Shown here: piece by piece, positions 6,995 to 18,333 of the stretch | Position numbering within the stretch: the first letter of the stretch is position 1 | Layout: each line of letters opens with the position of its first letter | Origin: a virus | Strand: one strand, 5' to 3' | Virus record (IMG/VR): IMGVR_UViG_3300037296_000240 | Coordinates: 1-36,666 of that record | Length of the DNA: 36,666 nt | Position numbers and translations under genes: made by a program | Notes under the pieces: model-generated | The model's database searches: none | The model's input: only the letters and a program-made list of their open reading frames with translations | Told to the model about the DNA's origin: nothing

Positions 6995-7027
6995 TTGTGA
7001 TTTGATAGATATCCCATTATAGTGGGA
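6995..7027 (+). promoter_or_regulatory. Repressor promoter with perfect operator palindrome over the -10
   Basis: TTGTGA (6995-7000) and TATAGT (7018-7023) are separated by exactly 17 bases, a near-consensus sigma-70 promoter pointing at the repressor gene. The palindrome TCCCA-6-TGGGA (7012-7027) covers the -10 box, as expected for an operator that blocks RNA polymerase, giving autoregulation or Cro control. The stretch 6845-7072 is otherwise non-coding and AT-rich. Confidence 0.7.
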
Positions 7028-7072
7028 CATCAGAGACAAGCGCCGCAACGGCGCGACGAAAGGAACAGGGAT

Positions 7073-7474
7073 ATGTTTATGGCACCAGAGAAGGCGACCC
7101 CTTCAAGCGCAGCGCGCGCCACGGGCGGATCAAAAGAACACCCCGCGATGGATATCGTGAGGGTCAATTTAAGGATGGCGGCCGCCCTGCGCGGCCTGAC
7201 CTATTCAGAGATTGCGGTGCGGGCGCAGATGTCCCGCAATGTGATTTCGCAATTTATAGCCGGGCAAAAATCCATCACCTACTCCAACCTTTTGCGCGCC
7301 TGCGATGTGCTCGATGTGCCAATTGGCATTTTGCACATTCCCGACACCATCACCGCCGCGCGAATCCGGCTGCACAAGATCCTCTTGAAAACCCCCGACC
7401 ATCTGGCCGCTACGGTTTTGGCAGAGGCGCAGGGGGCGGCGTCTGATTTGAGCAAAGGGGATCTGCCAGGATGA
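7073..7474 (+). CDS. XRE-family prophage repressor (CI-like)
   Basis: A 133-residue protein with an XRE helix-turn-helix at about residues 40-75: LTYSEIAVRAQMSRNVISQFI, then a Gln-Lys-Ser-Ile-Thr loop and a second helix. There is no LexA-type peptidase domain, so induction would not follow the lambda RecA route. The start at 7073 has AAAGGA at a good distance. The gene is divergent from the Cro-like gene and upstream of the plus-strand xis/int genes, the usual place of the lysogeny repressor. Its last 65 bases are overlapped on the other strand by a small ORF (7410-7568). Confidence 0.85.
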   Translation: MFMAPEKATPSSAARATGGSKEHPAMDIVRVNLRMAAALRGLTYSEIAVRAQMSRNVISQFIAGQKSITYSNLLRACDVLDVPIGILHIPDTITAARIRLHKILLKTPDHLAATVLAEAQGAASDLSKGDLPG

Positions 7475-7865: not shown

Positions 7866-8266
7866 GCGCCCCGGCCGCGCAAGGGGGGCCAGGGGAGGCC
7901 TGCGCCATGCTCTCCACCGCCGACGCCGTGGCCTATCTGGCCCGGTTTGGCATCCGCACATCGCGCCGCAAGATCGACATGCTCAGGCAATCCGGCGCGC
8001 TCAAATCCACCGAAGCCCTGGGCCGGATCAAATATCTTTTCCACCGCGCCGATTTGATCGCCGCTTTTACAAAGGATCACCGCCCGCCATGTATAAACTT
8101 TTCAGACGCAAAACGGGCGGCAACTACTACCTGCGCGGCACCGTCGCGGGACAGCCTGTTTTTGAAAGCACTGGCACAAGCAACCGCGCCGCAGCGGATG
8201 CGATTAGGATCCGGCGCGAAAGCGAAATCCTCGCGCGCCACGCCTATGGCAAGGCCGCCACGCTAA
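7862..8266 (+). CDS. Excisionase-like helix-turn-helix protein, reading frame overlapping int
   Basis: The 134-codon frame starts at an ATG overlapping the stop of the previous gene. Residues 18-75 form a MerR/excisionase-type winged helix: LSTADAVAYLARFGIRTS, RRKIDMLRQSGALKS and GRIKYLFHRADLIAAF. This domain ends almost exactly where the integrase ATG begins (8089), yet the frame stays open for another 59 codons inside int. The extra tail is basic and low-complexity, so it may be translated but dispensable, or a stop codon may have been lost. By position it is the directionality factor that helps the integrase excise the prophage. Confidence 0.7.
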   Translation: MSAPAAQGGPGEACAMLSTADAVAYLARFGIRTSRRKIDMLRQSGALKSTEALGRIKYLFHRADLIAAFTKDHRPPCINFSDAKRAATTTCAAPSRDSLFLKALAQATAPQRMRLGSGAKAKSSRATPMARPPR

Positions 8267-9168
8267 CCTTTGCAGAGGCCGCGCTCACCTATATGCAAAG
8301 CGGCGGCCAGGCGCGCTATCTGCCCCGCATCCTGCACCATTTTGGCGCGGATACGCTTGTGGATGATATCGACAATGGCGCGATCAACACCGCAGCCGCG
8401 GCGCTTTATCCAGACGCCGCCCCGGCCACGATTAACCGGCAATTGATCACGCCCATCTCAGCCGTGATCACCATGGCCGCCGCCAATGATTTGACGCGGC
8501 ACCGGATCTTTAAGCGCCGCAAGGTGCCCCCAGGGCGCACAAGATGGCTCACCCCAGAGGAGGCGGAACGCCTCATTGGCCACGCGGATCCGCACCTGGT
8601 GCCGATCCTGTTTTGCCTTCTCGGATCGGGCGCGCGCGTCTCAGAGGCCCTGGGCACGCAGGCGCAATTCTTTTACCCAAACACCCGCGAAATCTGGCTA
8701 CCGGATACCAAAAACGGCCATCCGCGTATGATCAGCCTACCCGCCCGCGCGTGCGATGCGATCCTGGCGGCCGATGTGCCAGACACCGGGCGCATCTTTT
8801 TGACGCCAAAGGGCAAGCCCTATCTGTTGAGCGCGGACACCAGCGACCACCGAGGCGGGCAGATCAAGGCCGCCTTTGATAAGGCGCGCGATGCGGCGGG
8901 CCTGGGCGCGGACGTGGTGCCCCATAGCCTGCGCCATACCTGGGCGACCTGGTATTATAGTGCCACCAAAGATTTCGGGGGGTTGCTCGACAAAGGCGGC
9001 TGGCAAAAATCGGATATGGCGCAACGCTATCGCAAGATTGCCCCGGCCGACCTGCCCGGCCGATTGCTCGATTACGGTTGGGATTTTGGCGCACCCCCTG
9101 CGCAGCGGCGCACAGCACAACCGCCCGCCCTGCGCGCGGTGCAAGGCGGGCGGGGCGGCCCCGGTTGA
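8089..9168 (+). CDS. int: Tyrosine recombinase, prophage integrase
   Basis: A 359-residue phage integrase. The N-terminal part (residues 1-55) is the arm-binding-type domain with NYYLRGTVAGQPVFESTGT; a core-binding SAM-like region follows (55-140), then the catalytic domain. The catalytic set can be seen: Arg183 in GSGARVSEAL, Lys208, His279 and Arg282 in HSLRHTWATW, Trp305 where many family members have His, and the nucleophile Tyr314 in RYRKI. It would recombine attP with a host site, here proposed to be a tRNA-Ser gene. The putative attP lies 4.7 kb away, not next to int. The gene ends 12 bases from the convergent spike gene. Confidence 0.95.
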   Translation: MYKLFRRKTGGNYYLRGTVAGQPVFESTGTSNRAAADAIRIRRESEILARHAYGKAATLTFAEAALTYMQSGGQARYLPRILHHFGADTLVDDIDNGAINTAAAALYPDAAPATINRQLITPISAVITMAAANDLTRHRIFKRRKVPPGRTRWLTPEEAERLIGHADPHLVPILFCLLGSGARVSEALGTQAQFFYPNTREIWLPDTKNGHPRMISLPARACDAILAADVPDTGRIFLTPKGKPYLLSADTSDHRGGQIKAAFDKARDAAGLGADVVPHSLRHTWATWYYSATKDFGGLLDKGGWQKSDMAQRYRKIAPADLPGRLLDYGWDFGAPPAQRRTAQPPALRAVQGGRGGPG

Positions 9169-9180
9169 AGTCTTTGCCGG

Positions 9181-11976
9181 TTACGCCTTCTGCAGCGCCC
9201 CGATCACCGCAGAGCCATCATTTGCAATCAAGCGGCCGCGCTGATCAGAGGGGAAAGGGGCCAATCCCGCCGGGATATTGGAAAGCGCGCTGGCAGCCTG
9301 CGGCGTATAATCACCGCCGCCCGCGCCCGTGCCCGCATAGCTTTGATCGCTTGTCCAAAGTGGATCCAGCGCGCCGCCTGCCCCGTTGCCCCATTGCGAT
9401 CCGAGCAATTCGACCTCACGCCGCCAGCTTCCCGCGCCGATCTCGGCATTGTTCGCCGTGTCGCCCTCAAGCATCGCCACGTTGCGATGGCCAACGTGAA
9501 ACACGGCCGGCCAATTCCCCACCATTGTGCCATCCGATGCAAACACATCGGTTTTTGTTCCATAGCGCGGCGTGACGCAGAATTGAAAACGCCAAGACAT
9601 AGCGGCCACGGGGGCAAAGGTGTGATCATTATAAAACGCGTTAATGCGGCCCTCAACATCGTCACCGGCATTTGTGTTCAGACGGTAATTGACGTTATGC
9701 ACGGCCGCCTCATTGCCATCCGCCCACATCCGAACAGCCGGGCCATTTGCGGACCGCATCTCAAACACGTTGCCAGTGATCGACAGGCCAAGCCCATCAA
9801 CGGCCGCCGCAAAATCACCCGATCCATACAAAAGCCCGCCCACAGCAGACAACACAGAAAACGCGCAAGCAGCCCCCGCGTGGCTAAACAGCTTCCCGTT
9901 CACAGGGGGCTGCGCATACCAATTAGACCCCTTTGACGCGATCATATTCATAATTGCAGGGCCAGTTTTGCCGACGAAACCGCTTAAAGACAGCGCCTTT
10001 GGCTGCGTACCAAAAAATTGATTGCTCATCCCGTCAAGGTCCGTGCAATTGATCATCCACATGCGCGCGGCGCGGCTGATCCAATAGGACGCATAGGCCT
10101 GCCCTGCCGGATCGAGGTTGCAGTTTTCAAAAACGAGCGAATCACTTAACGCGTTGCTTCCCTCAATAATTTGCGTGGTCGATCCCGTCGCGCGCAACGT
10201 GACATTGCGCAAGATACAGCGCGCCGGGACGTTGCGGGGTTGATTGATCCCGCCATCCGTCAAGATCACGGCCTGCCCCGCAGGCGCTTCCAAGATCAAG
10301 GGCAGCGATGGTGTGGGCCAGGTAGAGGCCCCCATGACATAGGTGCCAGACAAAAACCTGATCACCCCGCCAGAGACATCGGCGCGGCCGGTATTGGCGG
10401 AATTAAAGTTTTTGATCGCCGTCGCCGCCGCAGCAGAGGTAGCAAAGGGGCTGGCCTGGGCCGTCGCCGCCGCCGCACTTGCAACGCCGCCTGCATCACT
10501 TCCAGACGCCGCCACATAGGCAAAAACTTGCCCGATTGTGTTGTTTGCGTTTTTGTAACAATCGCGCGTTGTGGCGGTCATATGCGGGGCGGCGTGCCCC
10601 TGCACCGACAATTGAAACGCCGCACCCACCCACGGATAAACGATGGCATCGACCAGCACCGGCCCATCCGGCAGATCCGTAATATCGAGATCCGCCTGAA
10701 AAACCGGCACATTTAAACCAGAATTAGCGTAAAGCACATTGGTCATGTTGCTCACGATCACCTCACGCGACACGCCGCCGCCGGTCACAGTGAACTTGAC
10801 CGCCGCCACCGGGCGACCCGCGCGGGCGTGCGCGTGATCGACAAACAGCCGCAGCTGCGCCGCGCCCGCAAAGATTTCGTGATCTGGATCGAGCCAAACC
10901 GCTTGCGGCTTAGGGGCCGGGCGCGCGCTATTGTTCGTCACGCCCGCGATCTCATCCCCCGCATAGATGAAATCAGACAAGGCCACATCGGTATCCGTGA
11001 GTGTGGCCTGGGCCGGGTAGGGATTGCGCACCCGCGTCATAGTCCGCACGGTATCAGACACCGCAACCGGGGCCGCCGCTGCGTTATAGCCCTGGCGCGT
11101 CACGGTGATATCCGTTGCGGCAAAGCTGGCCGCCGCATCAGGCCAGGTGGCGCGCCAGCCATCTGCGCCCACCGCCGTGATTGGCGCGGCTGCGACCTGG
11201 GCCGCGACCGTGATTGTAAAGCCAGATTGCGCAGATCCGCCCGCATTTGTCGCCGTGATTACCGCGTTGAAGGTGCCCACCGTCGCCGGGTCGAAGGTCA
11301 ACACGCCCGTGGCCGCGTCAATTGTGCCGACCGTGGACGCAAAGACCAGATCCGCGCCGGTAAAATCACTCGCCGTGGGGATGGCTTGCACGCCGTCGCC
11401 TTCGGTATAGTCCCAATCGAGCAAAGCCCCGGCGGCCTCAGGGGCCGCGACCGGCTCAGGATCCACCGGATCCACCCCGCCGCCAGGCGATCCCGCGCCG
11501 GTGCCGGATGCGACATTCACGCCGCGCGCCCAGATCTCGCCGGTATCCGTGATCACATAGACCGTGCTTTGATTGATCGGCCCGGCCTGATATTCCGCCA
11601 GGGTCAGGATCGCCACCGCGCCCGCGCCCTCAAACAGCATTGTGGCAAAGGCGGTCGCATTGGGCTGGATCGAATTGGCGGCGGAAAACCGCCCCGATGT
11701 GAGACGGATTGGATTGGCGTCCGACATATTCCAGATTTCGCAAAAATAGGGCGTGCCCTCTTTGAGCGCGCCGTAATGATCGGGGCGGATCTGCACATAA
11801 CTGGCCGCGCCAGGGATTTCCAGGATCGGATCGCCGCCGATGCTATCGGACACCGTAAAGGCCAGATCCAGCCCGGCGGGCGTCAGGTTGATATCGAGCG
11901 CTTCACCGCGCGGAATATTGATATTTTGGCTGATCTCTTTGATGCTTGTGGCGATTGTGACGGTGCGGATTGGCAT
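9181..11976 (-). CDS. Tail spike / receptor-binding protein with beta-helix
   Basis: A 931-residue protein. The ATG at 11976 is chosen because AAGGGG lies 8 bases upstream. The N-terminal 140 residues form a beta-rich adaptor-like region (VTIATSIKEISQNINIPRG). A putative Ig-like cadherin/PIG-type domain follows (ADLVFASTVGTIDAATGVLT). From the middle, VAASGSDAGG opens a right-handed parallel beta-helix region with repeated strands such as RCILRNVTLRATGST and SLVFENCNLD, as in phage spikes that bind or cleave surface polysaccharides. No catalytic pair could be assigned. It is far from the tail genes and lies between int and attP, so it is probably exchanged as a cargo-like module. Confidence 0.72.
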   Translation of the reverse strand: MPIRTVTIATSIKEISQNINIPRGEALDINLTPAGLDLAFTVSDSIGGDPILEIPGAASYVQIRPDHYGALKEGTPYFCEIWNMSDANPIRLTSGRFSAANSIQPNATAFATMLFEGAGAVAILTLAEYQAGPINQSTVYVITDTGEIWARGVNVASGTGAGSPGGGVDPVDPEPVAAPEAAGALLDWDYTEGDGVQAIPTASDFTGADLVFASTVGTIDAATGVLTFDPATVGTFNAVITATNAGGSAQSGFTITVAAQVAAAPITAVGADGWRATWPDAAASFAATDITVTRQGYNAAAAPVAVSDTVRTMTRVRNPYPAQATLTDTDVALSDFIYAGDEIAGVTNNSARPAPKPQAVWLDPDHEIFAGAAQLRLFVDHAHARAGRPVAAVKFTVTGGGVSREVIVSNMTNVLYANSGLNVPVFQADLDITDLPDGPVLVDAIVYPWVGAAFQLSVQGHAAPHMTATTRDCYKNANNTIGQVFAYVAASGSDAGGVASAAAATAQASPFATSAAAATAIKNFNSANTGRADVSGGVIRFLSGTYVMGASTWPTPSLPLILEAPAGQAVILTDGGINQPRNVPARCILRNVTLRATGSTTQIIEGSNALSDSLVFENCNLDPAGQAYASYWISRAARMWMINCTDLDGMSNQFFGTQPKALSLSGFVGKTGPAIMNMIASKGSNWYAQPPVNGKLFSHAGAACAFSVLSAVGGLLYGSGDFAAAVDGLGLSITGNVFEMRSANGPAVRMWADGNEAAVHNVNYRLNTNAGDDVEGRINAFYNDHTFAPVAAMSWRFQFCVTPRYGTKTDVFASDGTMVGNWPAVFHVGHRNVAMLEGDTANNAEIGAGSWRREVELLGSQWGNGAGGALDPLWTSDQSYAGTGAGGGDYTPQAASALSNIPAGLAPFPSDQRGRLIANDGSAVIGALQKA

Positions 11977-12016
11977 ATGCGGCCCCTTATGGTGCGGTGT
12001 TTTTTGTTTGAAGGTT

Positions 12017-12319
12017 TCAGCGCGGCGGCGCGGGCGGATCGGCCCAGGCGTAGCCAAAGCCGTAGCGCGTCTCGATCACGTCCGTTTTTTTGAAGGTGTC
12101 GCGGATCATCCGGCGCACCCGCTTAATCTGGCTATCCACATTGCGGTCCAGAATATCGCCCTCAGCATCGCCAAAGATATGATCCAGGATCTCATTGCGG
12201 GTGCGGATCACGCCAGGGCGCTTGATCAGCAATTCAACGATTGCGAATTGCCCGGCGGTTAAATTGAGATAAGCGCGCCCATCGGTGAGCGCCTTGCGAT
12301 CTTGATCGAGCGTGATCAC
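12017..12319 (-). CDS. Orphan OmpR/PhoB-type winged-helix DNA-binding protein
   Basis: A 100-residue protein that is just the effector domain of an OmpR-family regulator: LTAGQFAIVELLIKRPGVIR (first helices), TRNEILDHIFG, then the recognition helix region NVDSQIKRVRRMIRD and the C-terminal hairpin ETRYGFGYAW. The whole domain is intact, better conserved than the one at 5884-6294, but no receiver domain and no kinase are present. It overlaps the gene upstream by four bases (ATGA) and precedes the spike gene by 40 bases. It may control the spike or late genes, or act on host promoters in lysogeny; this is inference. Confidence 0.85.
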   Translation of the reverse strand: MITLDQDRKALTDGRAYLNLTAGQFAIVELLIKRPGVIRTRNEILDHIFGDAEGDILDRNVDSQIKRVRRMIRDTFKKTDVIETRYGFGYAWADPPAPPR

Positions 12320-12561: not shown

Positions 12562-12710
12562 TGGCCTGGCCCCGGCCCGATGAGCGCCGCCAGCACGCAC
12601 ACCAACAGCGCGGCCAGCACCAGGGCCAGGGCGGGGGCATAACCCGCCAGGCGCGGCGCAGGGCGGCGCTTGGCCGTGCAGGCCCGGCAGGTGCCATCAC
12701 AGCCCCACAT
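12558..12710 (-). CDS. Tiny cysteine-containing membrane protein
   Basis: A 50-residue protein starting at ATG 12710, overlapping the previous stop (TGATG). CDGTCRACTAK near residues 4-14 could bind a metal, and residues 23-44 (APALALVLAALLVCVLAAL) form one hydrophobic span. It would be an inner-membrane protein with a short cysteine-rich cytoplasmic or exposed head. Function is unknown. It is too short for most automatic gene callers but is well embedded between two coupled genes. Confidence 0.58.
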   Translation of the reverse strand: MWGCDGTCRACTAKRRPAPRLAGYAPALALVLAALLVCVLAALIGPGPGQ

Positions 12711-13324
12711 CACGACAGCGCCGCCCCGATGAGCGCCCCCAGGGTCAGGGCGACACCGATCACCACCACCAGGACCGCGCCGCCGCCGGATCCGGCCGGG
12801 GCATCGTGCCACTCATCCACCACCACAAAATCCGCGCGCTTGCCCGCCAACTTGGCAGGCGCAGGCTTTTCCGCCGCGCGCGCGGCCTTGATGCGCATCG
12901 CGGCGGCCGTGCGGGCGCAGATTGGCACGCCGTCCACTGACAGATATTGCACCGCCGGGGCCTTTTCACCGGCGGCCTTTTCCTGCCAGGCCACCCCGGC
13001 CAGAAACCCGGTGCGGAACGTATCATAATCTTGCGGGATCGACATGGATCCCGTGATATGCGCATCCGCCGCAGCCTCAGCGCAGGCGCGGCGCATGATT
13101 TCGAGCGCCATCGCTTCGCCCGGTGCAGGCTTGATAGCGGCGCGGTGTTCAGGGGCGGGCGCGGCACCCGGCAGCGTGATCACCAGGGAGGCCTCATCAT
13201 CGCCTTGCGTGATGGCCAGGACGGCACGGGGGCCATCGCCGCGCGATGCGGCGCGCAGGGTGCGGCGGGCGATGCGGTGCGCATCCAGATCGAGCGCAGA
13301 CAGTTTGAACAAAAATTCAGCCAT
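12710..13324 (-). CDS. Tail-anchored protein, paralog-like to the 13374-13685 product
   Basis: A 204-residue protein. The ATG at 13324 is preferred over an upstream in-frame start because it gives MAEFLFKL, matching the neighbour's MAKFCFKL. The body is soluble-looking, with ITLPGAAPAPEHRAAI near residue 55. The C terminus is a single hydrophobic anchor (GGAVLVVVIGVALTLGALIGAAL) with almost nothing after it, so the protein would face the cytoplasm. The neighbouring gene has the same plan. No enzyme motif is visible. Its location beside attP suggests a lysogenic conversion or exclusion role, which is inference. Confidence 0.62.
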   Translation of the reverse strand: MAEFLFKLSALDLDAHRIARRTLRAASRGDGPRAVLAITQGDDEASLVITLPGAAPAPEHRAAIKPAPGEAMALEIMRRACAEAAADAHITGSMSIPQDYDTFRTGFLAGVAWQEKAAGEKAPAVQYLSVDGVPICARTAAAMRIKAARAAEKPAPAKLAGKRADFVVVDEWHDAPAGSGGGAVLVVVIGVALTLGALIGAALS

Positions 13325-13373
13325 GGGATTTCCTTTGGCGCAGAGCAGGGAAAGACGGAAAGCGCGGCGCAAA

Positions 13374-13685
13374 TTAGAGCAGCCCGGCGCGGGACAGGAT
13401 CAGCGCGGCGGCCGCAGCGGCGATCAAAAACCAAGAGGCCCCAGCCCAATGATTTGTTTTGAATATTTTATTGATATCCAGCGATGCGGTGCTGGCCTTG
13501 GCGATCTGCGCACCTGGCGCGGCATCCGGAACCGTCACAGTCAAGAATACTTCGCGCGGACCGCCAAGGGATCGAACGTCCGACACATCGACGCGGCAAA
13601 TCTCGACACCGCCGCGCTTCTCGACGCTATCGGCCACGAAACCGCCGTTCGTGTTTGGCATTAACTTAAAACAAAACTTAGCCAT
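13374..13685 (-). CDS. Tail-anchored protein, shorter relative of the 12710-13324 product
   Basis: A 103-residue protein with start at ATG 13685. It opens MAKFCFKLMPNTNGGF, has VTVPDAAPGAQIAKA in the middle and a C-terminal span (WFLIAAAAAALILSRAGLL). This matches the domain order of the next gene (MAEFLFKL, ITLPGAAPAPEHRAA, terminal anchor), so the two look like diverged duplicates, with an insertion in the longer one. It is the last gene before the putative attP segment and would be near the prophage end. Function is unknown. Confidence 0.6.
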   Translation of the reverse strand: MAKFCFKLMPNTNGGFVADSVEKRGGVEICRVDVSDVRSLGGPREVFLTVTVPDAAPGAQIAKASTASLDINKIFKTNHWAGASWFLIAAAAAALILSRAGLL

Positions 13686-13869
13686 ATCAGGCCCCTTTGG
13701 TTTGCGTTTGATTGCCCACTGGATAGGGGGGGCGACCTTGCGCAAAAAAGGCGGCGGGGCGGAAAAGTTAAAAAAAGCGCAGGCGGCGTGCAGGCGTGCA
13801 AAATCCGTGCAATTTTTTTGCTTGGCGCGATGATGTGTGTGATTTCAAGGGGGTGCGCGGTGCGCGGCG

Positions 13870-13912
13870 GCCCTTAGCAGGGGCGTGCCTTCGACCACTC
13901 GGCCACGTCTCC
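13870..13912 (-). pseudogene. 5' part of tRNA-Ser(GCU), probable attachment-site core
   Basis: Reading minus from 13912, the sequence starts with the acceptor strand GGAGACG, continues with T-G, the D-arm GCCGAGTGGTCGAAGGC, and the anticodon arm GCCC-CTGCTAA-GGGC with anticodon GCU. After the anticodon stem the similarity stops: no variable arm, no T-arm GTTCGA and no CGTCTCC to close the acceptor stem follow in the next 150 bases. It is therefore not a working tRNA on the phage. It would be the identity segment shared with a host tRNA-Ser gene, with crossover in or near the anticodon arm. Confidence 0.75.
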
Positions 13913-13919
13913 ACTGACC

Positions 13920-13949
13920 GCTATAGCCGCGCAACACCCAAAGAAACAA
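13920..13949 (-). promoter_or_regulatory. Promoter-like boxes upstream of the tRNA-Ser fragment
   Basis: On the minus strand TTGTTT (complement of 13944-13949) and TATAGC (complement of 13920-13925) are separated by 18 bases. The -10 box ends 7 bases before the tRNA 5' end. After integration this phage promoter would drive the hybrid tRNA whose 3' half comes from the host, keeping it functional. Confidence 0.45.
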
Positions 13950-14132
13950 GAGGAAAATAACGCCGCCGCCCATTTTTTTGGGCACCCCTGGGCGGGGCTG
14001 GATTTACCGGCATTTAACCCCGTTTCACCCCGTTATCCGTGCAATCCGTGCAAAATCCGTGCACGCTTGTGCCATTTTGTTCACGGGGCGGTGCACACCA
14101 CCGCGTGCATCGCCCCCTTTAGTGTTCAAGCC

Positions 14133-14654
14133 TCAGCTTGAAAAAAGCGCCGTAATCTCAGCCTCAAGCCCCGCTAGATCACCGTTATTGTCCAGGATCC
14201 AATCGGCATCATCCGCCGTCAATTCCATGGATGCGACCGGCTCAGGCGGCAGGTGATCGGACCGATCCACCCACACCACCAGATCAAAGAAGCCCCGCGC
14301 GCGCTCAAATTCAGCGCGGCTGCGCATCCCGGTATAAACGTCGTGATCCTCTAAGATTTGCTGGCACAGCATCGGGCCGGGGCGCAGGTTATAGGCGCGG
14401 ATCGCGTGGAACCACAAATCCCGATGACTGGCCCGGTCCGCATAGCAGGCCTGCCAATCGGGATAGAGATCCGCCACCAGGGGAAAGATCGCCTTTTGCG
14501 CGCAGAACTCCGAACTCGAAGCCACGCGCAGACCAAACCGCGCGCGCAGCATATCGCCAACGGTATCTTTGCCGTGGCGGCCGTGGCCGATGATCAGCAC
14601 CTTGAGGCGGTGCGGATTGGGAAAGGTGACAGCCTCAGAATGGGATTTCATCAT
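14133..14654 (-). CDS. P-loop nucleotide kinase, dNMP/adenylate kinase-like
   Basis: A 173-residue protein with the start at 14654, supported by a run of G six bases upstream and overlapping the end of ssb. [18 protein letters not shown] near residues 18-35 is a Walker A loop of the phage deoxynucleoside monophosphate kinase type. The LID-like and acidic regions follow ([13 protein letters not shown] near residues 125-137, then an acidic C-terminal part). Such enzymes phosphorylate dNMPs from degraded host DNA for phage synthesis. The substrate cannot be read from the sequence. The stop codon lies in a 7-bp hairpin (14125-14142) that ends this transcript block before attP. Confidence 0.75.
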
Positions 14655-15150
14655 CCATATCCCCCCTTTTCGCGTGGCTTGTGGATCCAGATCCACCGCC
14701 TTGATCATAACCGCCGCCACCGCCGCCACCATAATCGCCGCCGCCCTGGCCACCATAGCCGCCGCCAGATCCACCGCCCGATCCGCCGCCGCCATCGCCG
14801 CGCGCATCGCCCAGCATCAGCATGGATCCGCCAAAGCCCTGCAACACGATTTCGGTCGTGTAGCGATCCGCGCCGGATTGATCTTGCCATTTGCGCGTTT
14901 GCAGCTTGCCCTCGATATAGACCTTAGCACCTTTTTTCAGATAGCGCTCAGCGACACCCACCAGGCCCTCTTGAAAGATCGCCACGCTATGCCATTCGGT
15001 CTTTTCTTTTTTCTCGCCCGAATTGCGATCTTTCCAGGTTTCGGATGTGGCGACGCGCAAATTGCACACCTTGCCGCCATTGCCAAAGGTGCGCACCTCA
15101 GGATCCGCCCCCAGGTGCCCGATGATTTGAACCTTGTTTAAGCCCGCCAT
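14635..15150 (-). CDS. ssb: Single-stranded DNA-binding protein
   Basis: A 171-residue SSB of the bacterial type. The OB-fold (residues 1-110) starts [20 protein letters not shown] and includes WHSVAIF and [12 protein letters not shown] long glycine-rich linker (residues 117-155) separates it from the acidic tip DMDDEIPF, which in bacterial SSB recruits replication and repair partners. It coats single-stranded phage DNA during replication and recombination. AGGGGG precedes the ATG. It is not in the primase operon but downstream of the lysis genes and next to the nucleotide kinase, so it forms a second small DNA-metabolism block. Confidence 0.95.
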
Positions 15151-15368: not shown

Positions 15369-17035
15369 CACGCGCACCAGCGGGCGTTATCCGCCTGCGT
15401 ATAGATCGCGCGCTTGCCATTGGGATAAGCAACAACATGCGCGCGCCGCCAGCTTGTCGGGCCGTTGTTATAGCCCTGATCTAGCGCGCCGGTCATGCCC
15501 GCGACATAGACGCCATCGACGATCTCAGGGCTATGTTTGTCGCCAATCGTGATCCGCGTGGCCATCCGCGCCAGGCCCGACGCGGTGCCGCGTGATCCGT
15601 TTGGCCCCTGGTGGCCGTGCATCCCGCACTCAATGCCGCCGCTATCCTGGCAAATCACGAAACTGCCCCCCATCGGCACAAATTCGATACCGTCCAGATC
15701 GCGCGGATCCGCGCGCTTGAGCGCCCAGCGTAGCAGATTAAAGCCCTCGGCTTGATCGCGTTCCGCGTGCAACTGCGTCATGTTGCACAGGTGCCAATAG
15801 GCCGCATTGGCGATATCGCGCCGGTCCGCATCGCGCCGCGTCCATTGCTTCAGCCGGTCGTCGTGATTGCTTTCCACCATGACGGATTGGCAAAACTCGC
15901 GGGCGGTTTCGCGCAGGAACGCCGCGCCCTCCGCAATATGCGCCTCAATGCCGTGCAAATTGCGGTGCACCATCCGCGCCCAATGCAGCGGATCTTGATC
16001 GACATGGCGCGACGAAATTTCAAACGACAGCAGATCGTGAAAGAATTGATATTGCGGCCGCAGCCGTTCCATCAAGCTATCCGCCCGGCGGCCCCAAAGA
16101 TGCTCAAACACATCATCCGCCACGCTGGGCAAATGGATATCGCCAAAGGTGACAGCCTTCACCCGGTGCCCAGAGGATACCCGGCCCGCGCTCACCTTGT
16201 GATCGAGATCCTGAAACGCGCCGTCCGCCGTGGCGCTGATCTGGCGGCACCAGGCCCGGCCCGCATCATCGACCTCCACAATGATCGCGCCCAGGATGTG
16301 ATGAAATTCCGCCTTGAGGCCCGCTTTTTTGTTCACATAATTGGGCACCGTCACGGCCCCGGTTGTCATCACGCTTGGGACGTGTTGCCCAGGCATTTGC
16401 GGCACGGTTTCGTAAGACAGCTTGGCGTGCGGAAAAATCGCATCCCGGCCCCGGCTATAGGTGCCCAGGCCCGATAGAGGCTTGACCGCCGTGGGCAGCG
16501 TGTTCATCTCAGCGCAGAACAACACCGGGCCACAGTCTAGCGGATCAAAGCGCAGGAAGGGGCGCAATTCGGCCCGATAGGTGCCCGTGAGCGTCATGCG
16601 GTCCGTGTGGCGGATTGTCTGATATGTGAAACCCGCCACCACCAGATCCGCGCCGTGAAACTGCGCGTAGGCCTGCAGGTTTGCAAAAAAGCGCGGGTGC
16701 ACATCGGTATCATCCTGCGCGGCCGTCAGGATCCACCGGCGCACCTCGCCCCGGCGGATCTCACCCGGCGCAACACCGGCGCGCGAAAACAGCGACCAAT
16801 CGGGCAGCATATGATCAGCGCCCGACGTTTTGCGATTCTCTTGCGTGCGCAAAAAGCCATTCACAGAGCGGGGCGTTTCATCATGCCCGGCCTCAGACAA
16901 GCGGCGGGCCGCTTCCGTGAGAGCTGACCCTTTGCCGCCGCGCTGGCCGCGCGGATTAAAGCCCGCGCGCAGGGCCGCCTCAATCGCGCCCTTGATCCGT
17001 TGCTGGCGCTCGATGGGCATCGCGGGGAAACTCAT
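15368..17035 (-). CDS. Calcineurin-type metallophosphoesterase, resembling phage T5 A1
   Basis: A 555-residue protein, about the size of T5 protein A1. The dinuclear-metal phosphoesterase motifs appear in order: GDIHLPS (residues 298-304), ESNHDD (388-393, the GNHD motif), HGHQGPNG (473-480) and GDKHSP (498-503). Residues 1-60 look like a DNA-binding helical head (RIKGAIEAALRAGF, LTEAARRLSEAG). In T5, A1 is a pre-early protein linked to host DNA degradation and the second step of DNA entry. Here it follows the lysis genes and sits beside ssb and a nucleotide kinase, fitting host DNA breakdown and reuse. Similarity is by motif and length, so A1 identity is likely but not certain. Confidence 0.68.
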   Translation of the reverse strand: MSFPAMPIERQQRIKGAIEAALRAGFNPRGQRGGKGSALTEAARRLSEAGHDETPRSVNGFLRTQENRKTSGADHMLPDWSLFSRAGVAPGEIRRGEVRRWILTAAQDDTDVHPRFFANLQAYAQFHGADLVVAGFTYQTIRHTDRMTLTGTYRAELRPFLRFDPLDCGPVLFCAEMNTLPTAVKPLSGLGTYSRGRDAIFPHAKLSYETVPQMPGQHVPSVMTTGAVTVPNYVNKKAGLKAEFHHILGAIIVEVDDAGRAWCRQISATADGAFQDLDHKVSAGRVSSGHRVKAVTFGDIHLPSVADDVFEHLWGRRADSLMERLRPQYQFFHDLLSFEISSRHVDQDPLHWARMVHRNLHGIEAHIAEGAAFLRETAREFCQSVMVESNHDDRLKQWTRRDADRRDIANAAYWHLCNMTQLHAERDQAEGFNLLRWALKRADPRDLDGIEFVPMGGSFVICQDSGGIECGMHGHQGPNGSRGTASGLARMATRITIGDKHSPEIVDGVYVAGMTGALDQGYNNGPTSWRRAHVVAYPNGKRAIYTQADNARWCA

Positions 17036-17322
17036 CGCGCCGCCCCCGCGAGATCCGCCTGCACACCAGACGCCCAGGCGACAAGCGCCGCCTTTTCAGC
17101 GCCGCAGCGTAGCAATTCATCACCGACCCGGCCCAGGGCGACCTCGACCGCGCCCAGGCTCAAAGGCGCAGATCCGACGATCTCGCCAGGGGCCGCGCAG
17201 ATCCGCGCCGCGCTTGGCGGCAGCGCGTCACTTTGCACCAGTGCCCCACCGCTCACCAAGCCGCCGCAGCCCATTAAGGCCAAGGCCGGGGCCATCAGCC
17301 CCATCATCTGCCAACGCTTCAT
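17032..17322 (-). CDS. Outer-membrane spanin lipoprotein (Rz1-like)
   Basis: A 96-residue lipoprotein. The start at 17322 gives MKRWQMMGLMAPALALMGCGG: two positive residues, a hydrophobic core and the lipobox L-M-G-C, with Cys19 acylated. GGAAAGG precedes the ATG. Its first 95 bases lie inside the Rz-like gene in another frame, the classic overlapping spanin arrangement. It should sit in the outer membrane and join the inner-membrane partner to disrupt the envelope at the end of lysis. It is less proline-rich and longer than lambda Rz1. Its stop overlaps the phosphoesterase start (ATGA). Confidence 0.78.
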   Translation of the reverse strand: MKRWQMMGLMAPALALMGCGGLVSGGALVQSDALPPSAARICAAPGEIVGSAPLSLGAVEVALGRVGDELLRCGAEKAALVAWASGVQADLAGAAR

Positions 17323-17557
17323 TTTCCAACCTTTCCACCAGGGCCGCGCGATCCGCACGCACCGCCGCCACATCATCGAGCGCGGCGCGCAGCCGGGCAT
17401 CACGATCATTGATTTTTACCTGCAGCACATCGCGCAGCGCGGCCGCCTCGATCTGGGCCGCCGCATAGCCGCGCGCGTAGCCAAGATGATCGAGCGCAGC
17501 GGCAAAGGCCGCCCCCCCCGCCACCAGCACCGCAGCCCAGATAAACACCGCCCTCAT
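17228..17557 (-). CDS. Inner-membrane spanin (Rz-like)
   Basis: A 109-residue protein from ATG 17557, overlapping the endolysin stop. The N terminus is one hydrophobic helix (MRAVFIWAAVLVAGGAAF), followed by a long coiled-coil-like helix (residues 30-85) rich in Ala, Arg, Asp and Leu. This is the plan of i-spanins: anchored in the inner membrane with a periplasmic coiled coil. The overlapping lipoprotein frame just downstream and the endolysin just upstream confirm the lysis role. Confidence 0.8.
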   Translation of the reverse strand: MRAVFIWAAVLVAGGAAFAAALDHLGYARGYAAAQIEAAALRDVLQVKINDRDARLRAALDDVAAVRADRAALVERLENEALADDGADGPGLGLNGLRRLGERWGTGAK

Positions 17558-18333
17558 AGCGCCGGGGCCTGGATGTGCATCCAATCGAAATTCTTAGCAG
17601 GCCCCAGGCCGGTCCAGCCCTCAGCCGCCCAGGCCGCCCAGAAGCGCGCCGCATCCGGCAACGCCAGGCGCGCACGATCCCGGCCCCATTGCAGGCGATT
17701 GCGCGCCGGATCCCAATCGACCGCGACGCCCCAGGCGTGCACTGATTTTGTGGATCCGCCGCGCTTGAGGCGATCATTGAAACAGCCGCCATAAAGGTGC
17801 AGGCCCAGATCCGTGATTTGATCGGGGGTGTGCGTATCGGCCACATTTTCCAGCACGCGGGCCAGGGACGCCTCAACATCGGCATGGCAAGCGATAGTGG
17901 ATACCTCTTGCGTCTCATCCCAGGCCAGCACCGTGCGCCAGGGGATCCGCACCCGGCCCATCGTGCAGATCGCAGATCCCGGCGCGCCAAAGCGGCGCAC
18001 CAGATCGACCTCACGCCCCCAGGCATTTTCCGCAGACCGGTCCACGAAACCGACACCCGCCAAATCACAGGCCCAGGCCTCAAAGGCGGCATCCGTGGAC
18101 GGCCCCCAAAGGCCATCCGCCGGGCCAGGATCAAAGCCCGCCTGGCGCAAGGCGATCTGGCCCGCCGCGATCACACGGCGGGCGGCCGACAGGGACGCGC
18201 GCGGATCCCGCAGGCCCTCGATCCGCCCCGCCGCCGCCAGCGATCTAGGCCCAGGATCGCCATCAATCGCGCCCGCGTAGCCCGCCACCATGCGCAAGAT
18301 CACTTGCGCGTTTTCAACACCATTCCAGCCCAT
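17554..18333 (-). CDS. Endolysin, M15-type D-Ala/L-Ala peptidase
   Basis: About 259 residues. The ATG at 18333 (GGGG upstream) is favoured over 18345, which lacks a Shine-Dalgarno sequence. The C-terminal domain is a peptidase M15_4-like zinc enzyme: SVHAWGVAVDWDP (the SxHxxGxAxD motif with metal ligands His and Asp) and the last ligand in DWMHIQ near the C terminus. The N-terminal half contains a peptidoglycan-binding-like repeat (QIALRQAGFDPGPADGLWGPSTDAAFEAW). It should cut peptide cross-links in the cell wall. No signal peptide is evident, so export needs a holin, which would be one of the membrane proteins just upstream. Confidence 0.85.
   Translation of the reverse strand: MGWNGVENAQVILRMVAGYAGAIDGDPGPRSLAAAGRIEGLRDPRASLSAARRVIAAGQIALRQAGFDPGPADGLWGPSTDAAFEAWACDLAGVGFVDRSAENAWGREVDLVRRFGAPGSAICTMGRVRIPWRTVLAWDETQEVSTIACHADVEASLARVLENVADTHTPDQITDLGLHLYGGCFNDRLKRGGSTKSVHAWGVAVDWDPARNRLQWGRDRARLALPDAARFWAAWAAEGWTGLGPAKNFDWMHIQAPAL

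Follow-up and report, generated by a model that had tools for sequence, protein, structure and literature searches.

The virus record IMGVR_UViG_3300037296_000240 of IMG/VR, a contig of 36,666 bases that is classed as linear and was analyzed over its whole length (the window), contains at positions 13787 to 14063 what is, with a probability of about 0.92, the attachment site (attP) of a temperate tailed phage with a tyrosine integrase, consisting of the 5' half of tRNA-Ser(GCU) together with a promoter of its own. The attP core is the first 43 nucleotides of tRNA-Ser(GCU) on the minus strand (13870..13912, with tRNA nucleotide 1 at 13912). A match to the 5' part of this tRNA had been reported in a first-pass annotation, and all 43 nucleotides were identical to the complete tRNA-Ser(GCU) genes of three host-family genomes (L442, L443, and L444); the expected count of one given 43-mer in the window is about 1e-21. 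The core runs from tRNA nucleotide 1 through the anticodon loop to four of the five bases of the 3' strand of the anticodon stem. The loop, CTGCTAA (13874..13880, minus strand), is flanked by the stem strands CGCCC and GGGC and is the likely overlap region in which crossover would occur. The core has no 3' half, and a whole phage tRNA gene was rejected, as ARAGORN detected no complete tRNA in the window. The 3' end of a tRNA gene, by which a conventional attP is recognized, was not present.

Integrase relatives were found at nine viral loci and eight genome loci. The 5' half was present in four of the viral loci (L002, L004, L007, and L009) and six of the genome loci (L011 to L016), and in these ten loci it was always antisense to the integrase gene (int). 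A further viral locus, L010, carried the 3' half instead. Both prophage ends were readable in four assemblies, with a distance from half to half of 50.4 kb in Salipiger bermudensis HTCC2601, 43.9 kb in CP059262, a metagenome-assembled genome (MAG) labelled Exiguobacterium, 41.3 kb in Rhodobacterales bacterium HKCCE4037, and 16.4 kb in Yoonia maritima. In all four prophages, the int-distal end has a complete tRNA-Ser(GCU), whereas the int side has a 5' half that lacks a 3' half; the two share a strand, and the 5' end and promoter of the complete gene face into the element. Each of the four lysogen genomes had one match to the 3' part of tRNA-Ser(GCU). The comparison of the two prophage ends (attL and attR) in host genomes with integrated relatives had been proposed as a check in the first-pass annotation, and it placed the junctions at tRNA-Ser(GCU) in these four. 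The accompanying argument, that a phage supplying the 5' half must also supply a promoter, was borne out, in that the 5' half and promoter of the restored tRNA are on the prophage side in each case.

The empty site of the hosts was rebuilt by script from the host DNA upstream of the displaced half, the 3' part, and the host DNA downstream. The rebuilt Salipiger site aligned without a break to G022 (1,639 columns, 88.5%), the HKCCE4037 site to G062 (1,071 columns, 83.7%) and G068 (1,084 columns, 78.9%), and the Yoonia site to G043 (262 columns, 95.4%), confirming displacement of the host promoter for three of the four hosts. The upstream DNA on the prophage side had no match in the relatives' loci compared (11, 7, 7, and 7 for the four hosts). 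In a search of the family, the exact 5' pattern was present in 151 of 198 genomes; among the genomes listed, two copies were present only in G011, the Salipiger lysogen, and in G206, where they are on two contigs and one match is at a contig end.

Three further observations were made at these loci. In L445 (G033) and L072 (G043), a 5' half with its own promoter-like boxes is located 2.5 kb and 0.5 kb, respectively, upstream of the complete gene; these extra halves are probably remnants of 5'-half elements. The 16.4-kb element of Yoonia maritima (L016) contains a second integrase-like open reading frame (ORF) at 16799 to 17800 and may be decayed or tandem. The tRNA-Ser genes and near relatives of L014 (CP059262.1) look alphaproteobacterial, and its label, Exiguobacterium profundum, seems to be wrong.

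By the same route, the integrase of the window (359 amino acids [aa], 8089..9168, plus strand, identified by Pfam Phage_integrase, a PHROG integrase match, and a structure model) would bind the repeats to the left and right of the core as arm sites, and the anticodon stem-loop of attP would be recombined with that of the host tRNA-Ser(GCU). At the int-distal junction, the phage promoter would then be followed by the phage 5' half and the host 3' half, giving a complete tRNA gene on the phage promoter. At the other junction, the host promoter and host 5' half would lead into the prophage from its int side, and excision would restore both sites. The hosts of the window phage are probably Rhodobacteraceae. 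The 5' strand of the window's anticodon stem forms five of five pairs with the 3' strand of the L442 to L444 tRNAs and with the tRNA of the SSD5 MAG, and four of five with those of Salipiger, Yoonia, and HKCCE4037. As stem pairing differs among hosts, the phage half may itself restrict the range of hosts in which the tRNA stays sound.

The core is flanked by repeats that look like integrase arm sites. Four exact copies of ATCCGTGCA were found, all on the plus strand, starting at 13803, 14035, 14044, and 14055; in 300 first-order Markov windows, the mean was 0.43 copies and the maximum 3. The left copy (13803-13811) is 58 bases from the tRNA half and belongs to the left arm repeats (13787..13811, plus strand), and the right arm repeats (14035..14063, plus strand) are three copies with spacings of 9 and 11. 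With one mismatch allowed, the whole window contained 18 matches against a shuffle mean of 13.1, and 13 of 100 shuffles were as high, so there was no enrichment; what stands out is the clustering of ATCCGTGCA, not its whole-window number with one mismatch. The arrangement described previously, one copy on the left and three on the right in the same orientation, holds for ATCCGTGCA, but for CGTGCA there are three copies on each side (13787, 13795, and 13806; 14038, 14047, and 14058). In relatives, GTGCA occurred left of the core 15 times in the window's orientation versus 3 times in the opposite one (ten sequences; shuffle mean 1.4, maximum 7) and right of the core 19 versus 4 times (nine sequences; shuffle mean 2.2, maximum 8). 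The Salipiger attL has the same triple repeat as the window, again with spacings of 9 and 11. When the sequences were read by eye, a variant common to both arms was seen in L013 (GCGCA) and HKCCE4037 (CCGTGGA), and little sign of arm repeats was seen in Yoonia and L007.

Direct repeats (iterons) also mark replication origins, and a single-strand DNA-binding protein gene (ssb) lies next to the right repeats. The site could thus be an attP whose repeats serve a replication or regulatory protein instead of the integrase. This is improbable, as in relatives the core has repeats to its left and right at similar distances, and the same arm variant is shared by both sides in L013 and HKCCE4037. The structure model of the integrase (mean predicted local distance difference test score, 84.6) also argues for arm binding by the integrase, since it predicts an N-terminal unit of three strands plus a helix, which is typical of the arm-binding domains of tyrosine integrases. 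Full-length lambda integrase was among the Foldseek matches of the model.

The promoter-like boxes reported 7 bases before the tRNA start were present as described. The -35-like box TTGTTT (13944..13949, minus strand) is separated by an 18-nucleotide spacer from the -10-like box TATAGC (13920..13925, minus strand). Related sites were tested for TTG at -40 to -33 and TA at -17 to -9 with fitting spacing. This pair was present at that position in 45 of 47 phage-side upstream regions and TTG alone in all 47; at nine shifted positions, only 0 to 2 of 44 to 47 regions passed. The 47 regions are mutually related, so they do not represent 47 independent events. They comprised 34 with the layout of the window, in which the 3' end of int faces the anticodon side of the half (including the four attL ends of chromosomal prophages), and 13 with the other layout, in which the 5' half adjoins int on the same strand. 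The upstream regions of host tRNA-Ser(GCU) genes have the same box layout, and the promoter of the window is predicted to be active.

The restored tRNA might instead be driven by read-through of phage transcripts. For archaeal pTN3-like elements, the available passages of a review (PMC8371274) describe a restored tRNA expressed from the integrase promoter, and a strict Escherichia coli sigma-70 scan of 13600-14200 returned no site. Read-through is nevertheless very unlikely here, since int in the window layout is located at the prophage end away from the restored tRNA and points in the opposite direction, and the boxes are kept in nearly all sites in the layout found upstream of host tRNA-Ser(GCU) genes.

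The occurrence of such halves was surveyed by two scans of viral contigs, which are samples, with counts taken from the matches listed. The 5'-half scan listed 119 matches, comprising 67 complete tRNAs, 49 halves, and 3 at contig edges. When the T-arm test was relaxed, nothing resembling a 3' half appeared in 46 of the 49 listed halves, and the remaining 3 seem to be due to chance. An integrase was found less than 1 kb from the half in 45 of the 49 half-only contigs listed and farther away in 1; 3 had no integrase match. Among the 170 complete tRNAs listed in both scans, an integrase was near in 8 and far in 3. The 3'-side scan listed 120 matches (103 complete, 15 halves, and 2 edges), and 5 of the 15 listed 3'-half contigs matched the integrase profile of this clade. 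In a control with tRNA-Ser(GGA), 39 of 40 were complete and 1 was a half. The layout of the window was found in 28 of the 46 listed 5'-half contigs with an integrase, and the other layout in 18. Bcep781 was also matched in the searches; since its tRNA-Ser(GCU) is complete, it was considered ordinary and left out of later counts. In one contig (L131, 1072-3403), a single 5' half is flanked by two integrase matches, one to either side (126 and 98 bits), and may mark a tRNA site occupied by two elements. An origin of the 43 bases by decay or capture of a tRNA gene, or a function in infection as a tRNA fragment that the free phage could transcribe from its own promoter, in either case without a role as attachment site, is barely credible, for although phages carry whole tRNA genes, as Bcep781 does, the junctions and empty sites in relatives, the proximity of integrase genes to the listed halves, and the single half in the tRNA-Ser(GGA) control all speak for an attachment site.

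Several results weigh against an attP built from a 5' half and its own promoter. No lysogen of the window phage itself was found, and the ends of the record are uninformative on integration. Because the host half does not differ from the phage half until 0 to 4 nucleotides past the loop, the point of crossover cannot be mapped. Neither a complete tRNA-Ser(GCU) nor a match to its 3' part is present in the assemblies of L011 and L013, and no half was seen at the loci of L017 and L018, the most distant of the eight genome matches. No relative shows the empty site of the SSD5 MAG, whose host upstream side was also unmatched. Two of the 47 upstream regions fail the promoter test, and the negative sigma-70 scan counts on the same side.

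The gap between int and attP in the window is 4,702 bases, matching the 4.7 kb given previously, and attP lies past int, not inside the gene. The gap was 8.7 kb in L002, 3.4 kb in L004, 9.4 kb in L012, and 5.2 kb in L381; in L372, the half is at 16231, about 5.2 kb from int. Shorter gaps were found in L010, L013, L014, and L016 (1.0 to 2.5 kb), L011 (0.4 kb), and L007, L009, L015, and L383 (under 0.1 kb). The distance noted as unusual in the first-pass annotation is therefore real but falls inside the span seen among the nearest relatives (under 0.1 to 9.4 kb). Among 80 related viral loci, attachment sites were mostly unreadable with the patterns used, and many contigs end near int. A quick tree without bootstraps was built from 68 integrase rows, thinned to 57 at 90% identity. 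A clade of 41 of the 57 integrases (Shimodaira-Hasegawa-like approximate likelihood ratio test support, 100) comprised 36 with the layout of the window, 3 with the alternative 5' layout, and 2 with a 3' half; possession of a tRNA-Ser(GCU) half was the criterion for choosing rows, which means that the share of 5' users among the clade's integrases cannot be taken from the tree.

The use of a 5' half is rare, as had been supposed, but the kind was already known from islands, cyanophages, and archaeal elements, as far as the available passages of the cited papers describe them. Of the 3,919 islands counted by Islander (PMC4383910), 159 have a 5' tDNA fragment and 3,760 a 3' fragment. Its 5' islands, a rare class there, resemble the type in the window in having a tyrosine integrase, a piece of tDNA in attP, and a complete gene and a displaced 5' fragment at their ends; promoters are not mentioned in those passages. 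The attP motifs of T7-like cyanophages correspond to the first half of tRNA-Leu; int and attP are needed for integration, which does not yield stable lysogens (PMC8776855). Unlike the window, cyanophages P-SSP7 and S-TIP37 use tRNA-Leu, with attP directly downstream of int, and no stable lysogens of them were found, whereas relatives of the window phage are found in chromosomes. Archaeal pTN3-like integrases use the 5' half of a tRNA gene, and the restored gene is severed from its original promoter (PMC8371274, PMC5495485), but integration splits int and the tRNA is read from the integrase promoter, whereas attP in the window is outside int. The review (PMC8371274), citing Williams 2002, describes 5'-half use as seldom met in bacteria, and according to it the tRNA keeps its own promoter with most tRNA-targeting elements. 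The tRNA-dependent lysogeny of mycobacteriophages (PMC10865867) is similar in that an essential tRNA gene is targeted and the phage compensates for the loss; those phages have a core of about 10 bp and a whole tRNA gene, whereas the window has a 43-nucleotide core and half a gene with a promoter, so that neither the short core nor the whole phage tRNA gene is present.

Rhizobium phages RHph_TM3_3_3 (MN988468) and RHph_I1_23 (MN988556) resemble the window phage in having a 5' half of tRNA-Ser(GCU) beside int, an integrase of the same wider clade, and the boxes, but differ in that attP is about 0.1 kb from int and the host tRNA acceptor stem is GGAGAGG. A prophage of Paracoccus denitrificans PD1222 is listed in tRNA-Ser(GCT). 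A literature search within one library returned nothing recognizable on a tRNA-Ser(GCU) 5'-half clade or a polarity switch. What is new here is a phage-borne promoter kept across one integrase clade, int-attP gaps of up to 9.4 kb, and a nested relative with a 3' half. Elements of this clade deprive a single-copy tRNA gene of its promoter and have to supply another, a clean case for studying how a phage provides an essential host function at integration. Prophage finders keyed to a 3' tRNA fragment will miss such ends.

The nested relative, L010, has a 3' half instead of a 5' half, with the core turned round relative to int; ARAGORN misread this 3' half as a whole tRNA. The L010 integrase is 61 to 62% identical to that of the window and falls inside a set of seven rows (support, 96) that otherwise have the 5' half. 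Its GTGCA repeats near the core are fewer and keep the orientation of the window. A P-loop kinase is at the same place relative to attP as the kinase-like gene of the window, so at one position, before the kinase and ssb genes, the window has a 5' half with a promoter and L010 a 3' half. Since the anticodon stem is almost a perfect inverted repeat, the core could be turned round within attP. One integrase lineage could possibly flip which tRNA half it supplies, and the 5' state, with a single-copy essential tRNA under a phage promoter and putative arm sites about 120 bp upstream, could couple the prophage state to tRNA-Ser(GCU) supply; this suggestion is tentative, as a single locus is thin ground. 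L010 makes the origin of attP polarity testable. A second 3'-half relative, L397 (about 11102, minus strand), has 44% integrase identity, with the 3' end adjoining int, and is sister to the 5'-half L009 in the tree.

The window contains genes for terminase, portal, capsid, tape-measure, and tail proteins. A helix-turn-helix regulator, likely the repressor, is encoded at 7022..7474 (plus strand; PHROGs, Pfam HTH_3). On its other side, attP is flanked by a deoxynucleoside monophosphate kinase-like gene (14133..14807, minus strand), which also neighbors attP in L372, L002, and L004, and then by ssb (14635..15150, minus strand). An Rfam search of the window at the gathering threshold gave no match, and the ORFs between int and attP had no known function in PHROGs, Pfam, or PADLOC. 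One of them, a 958-aa ORF (9181-12057, minus strand) likewise without a match in these three, is matched at 34% over 129 aa in L371 and L372, the nearest relatives. Together with the ORFs at 12710-13372 and 13374-13745, it would end up at the int end of the prophage.
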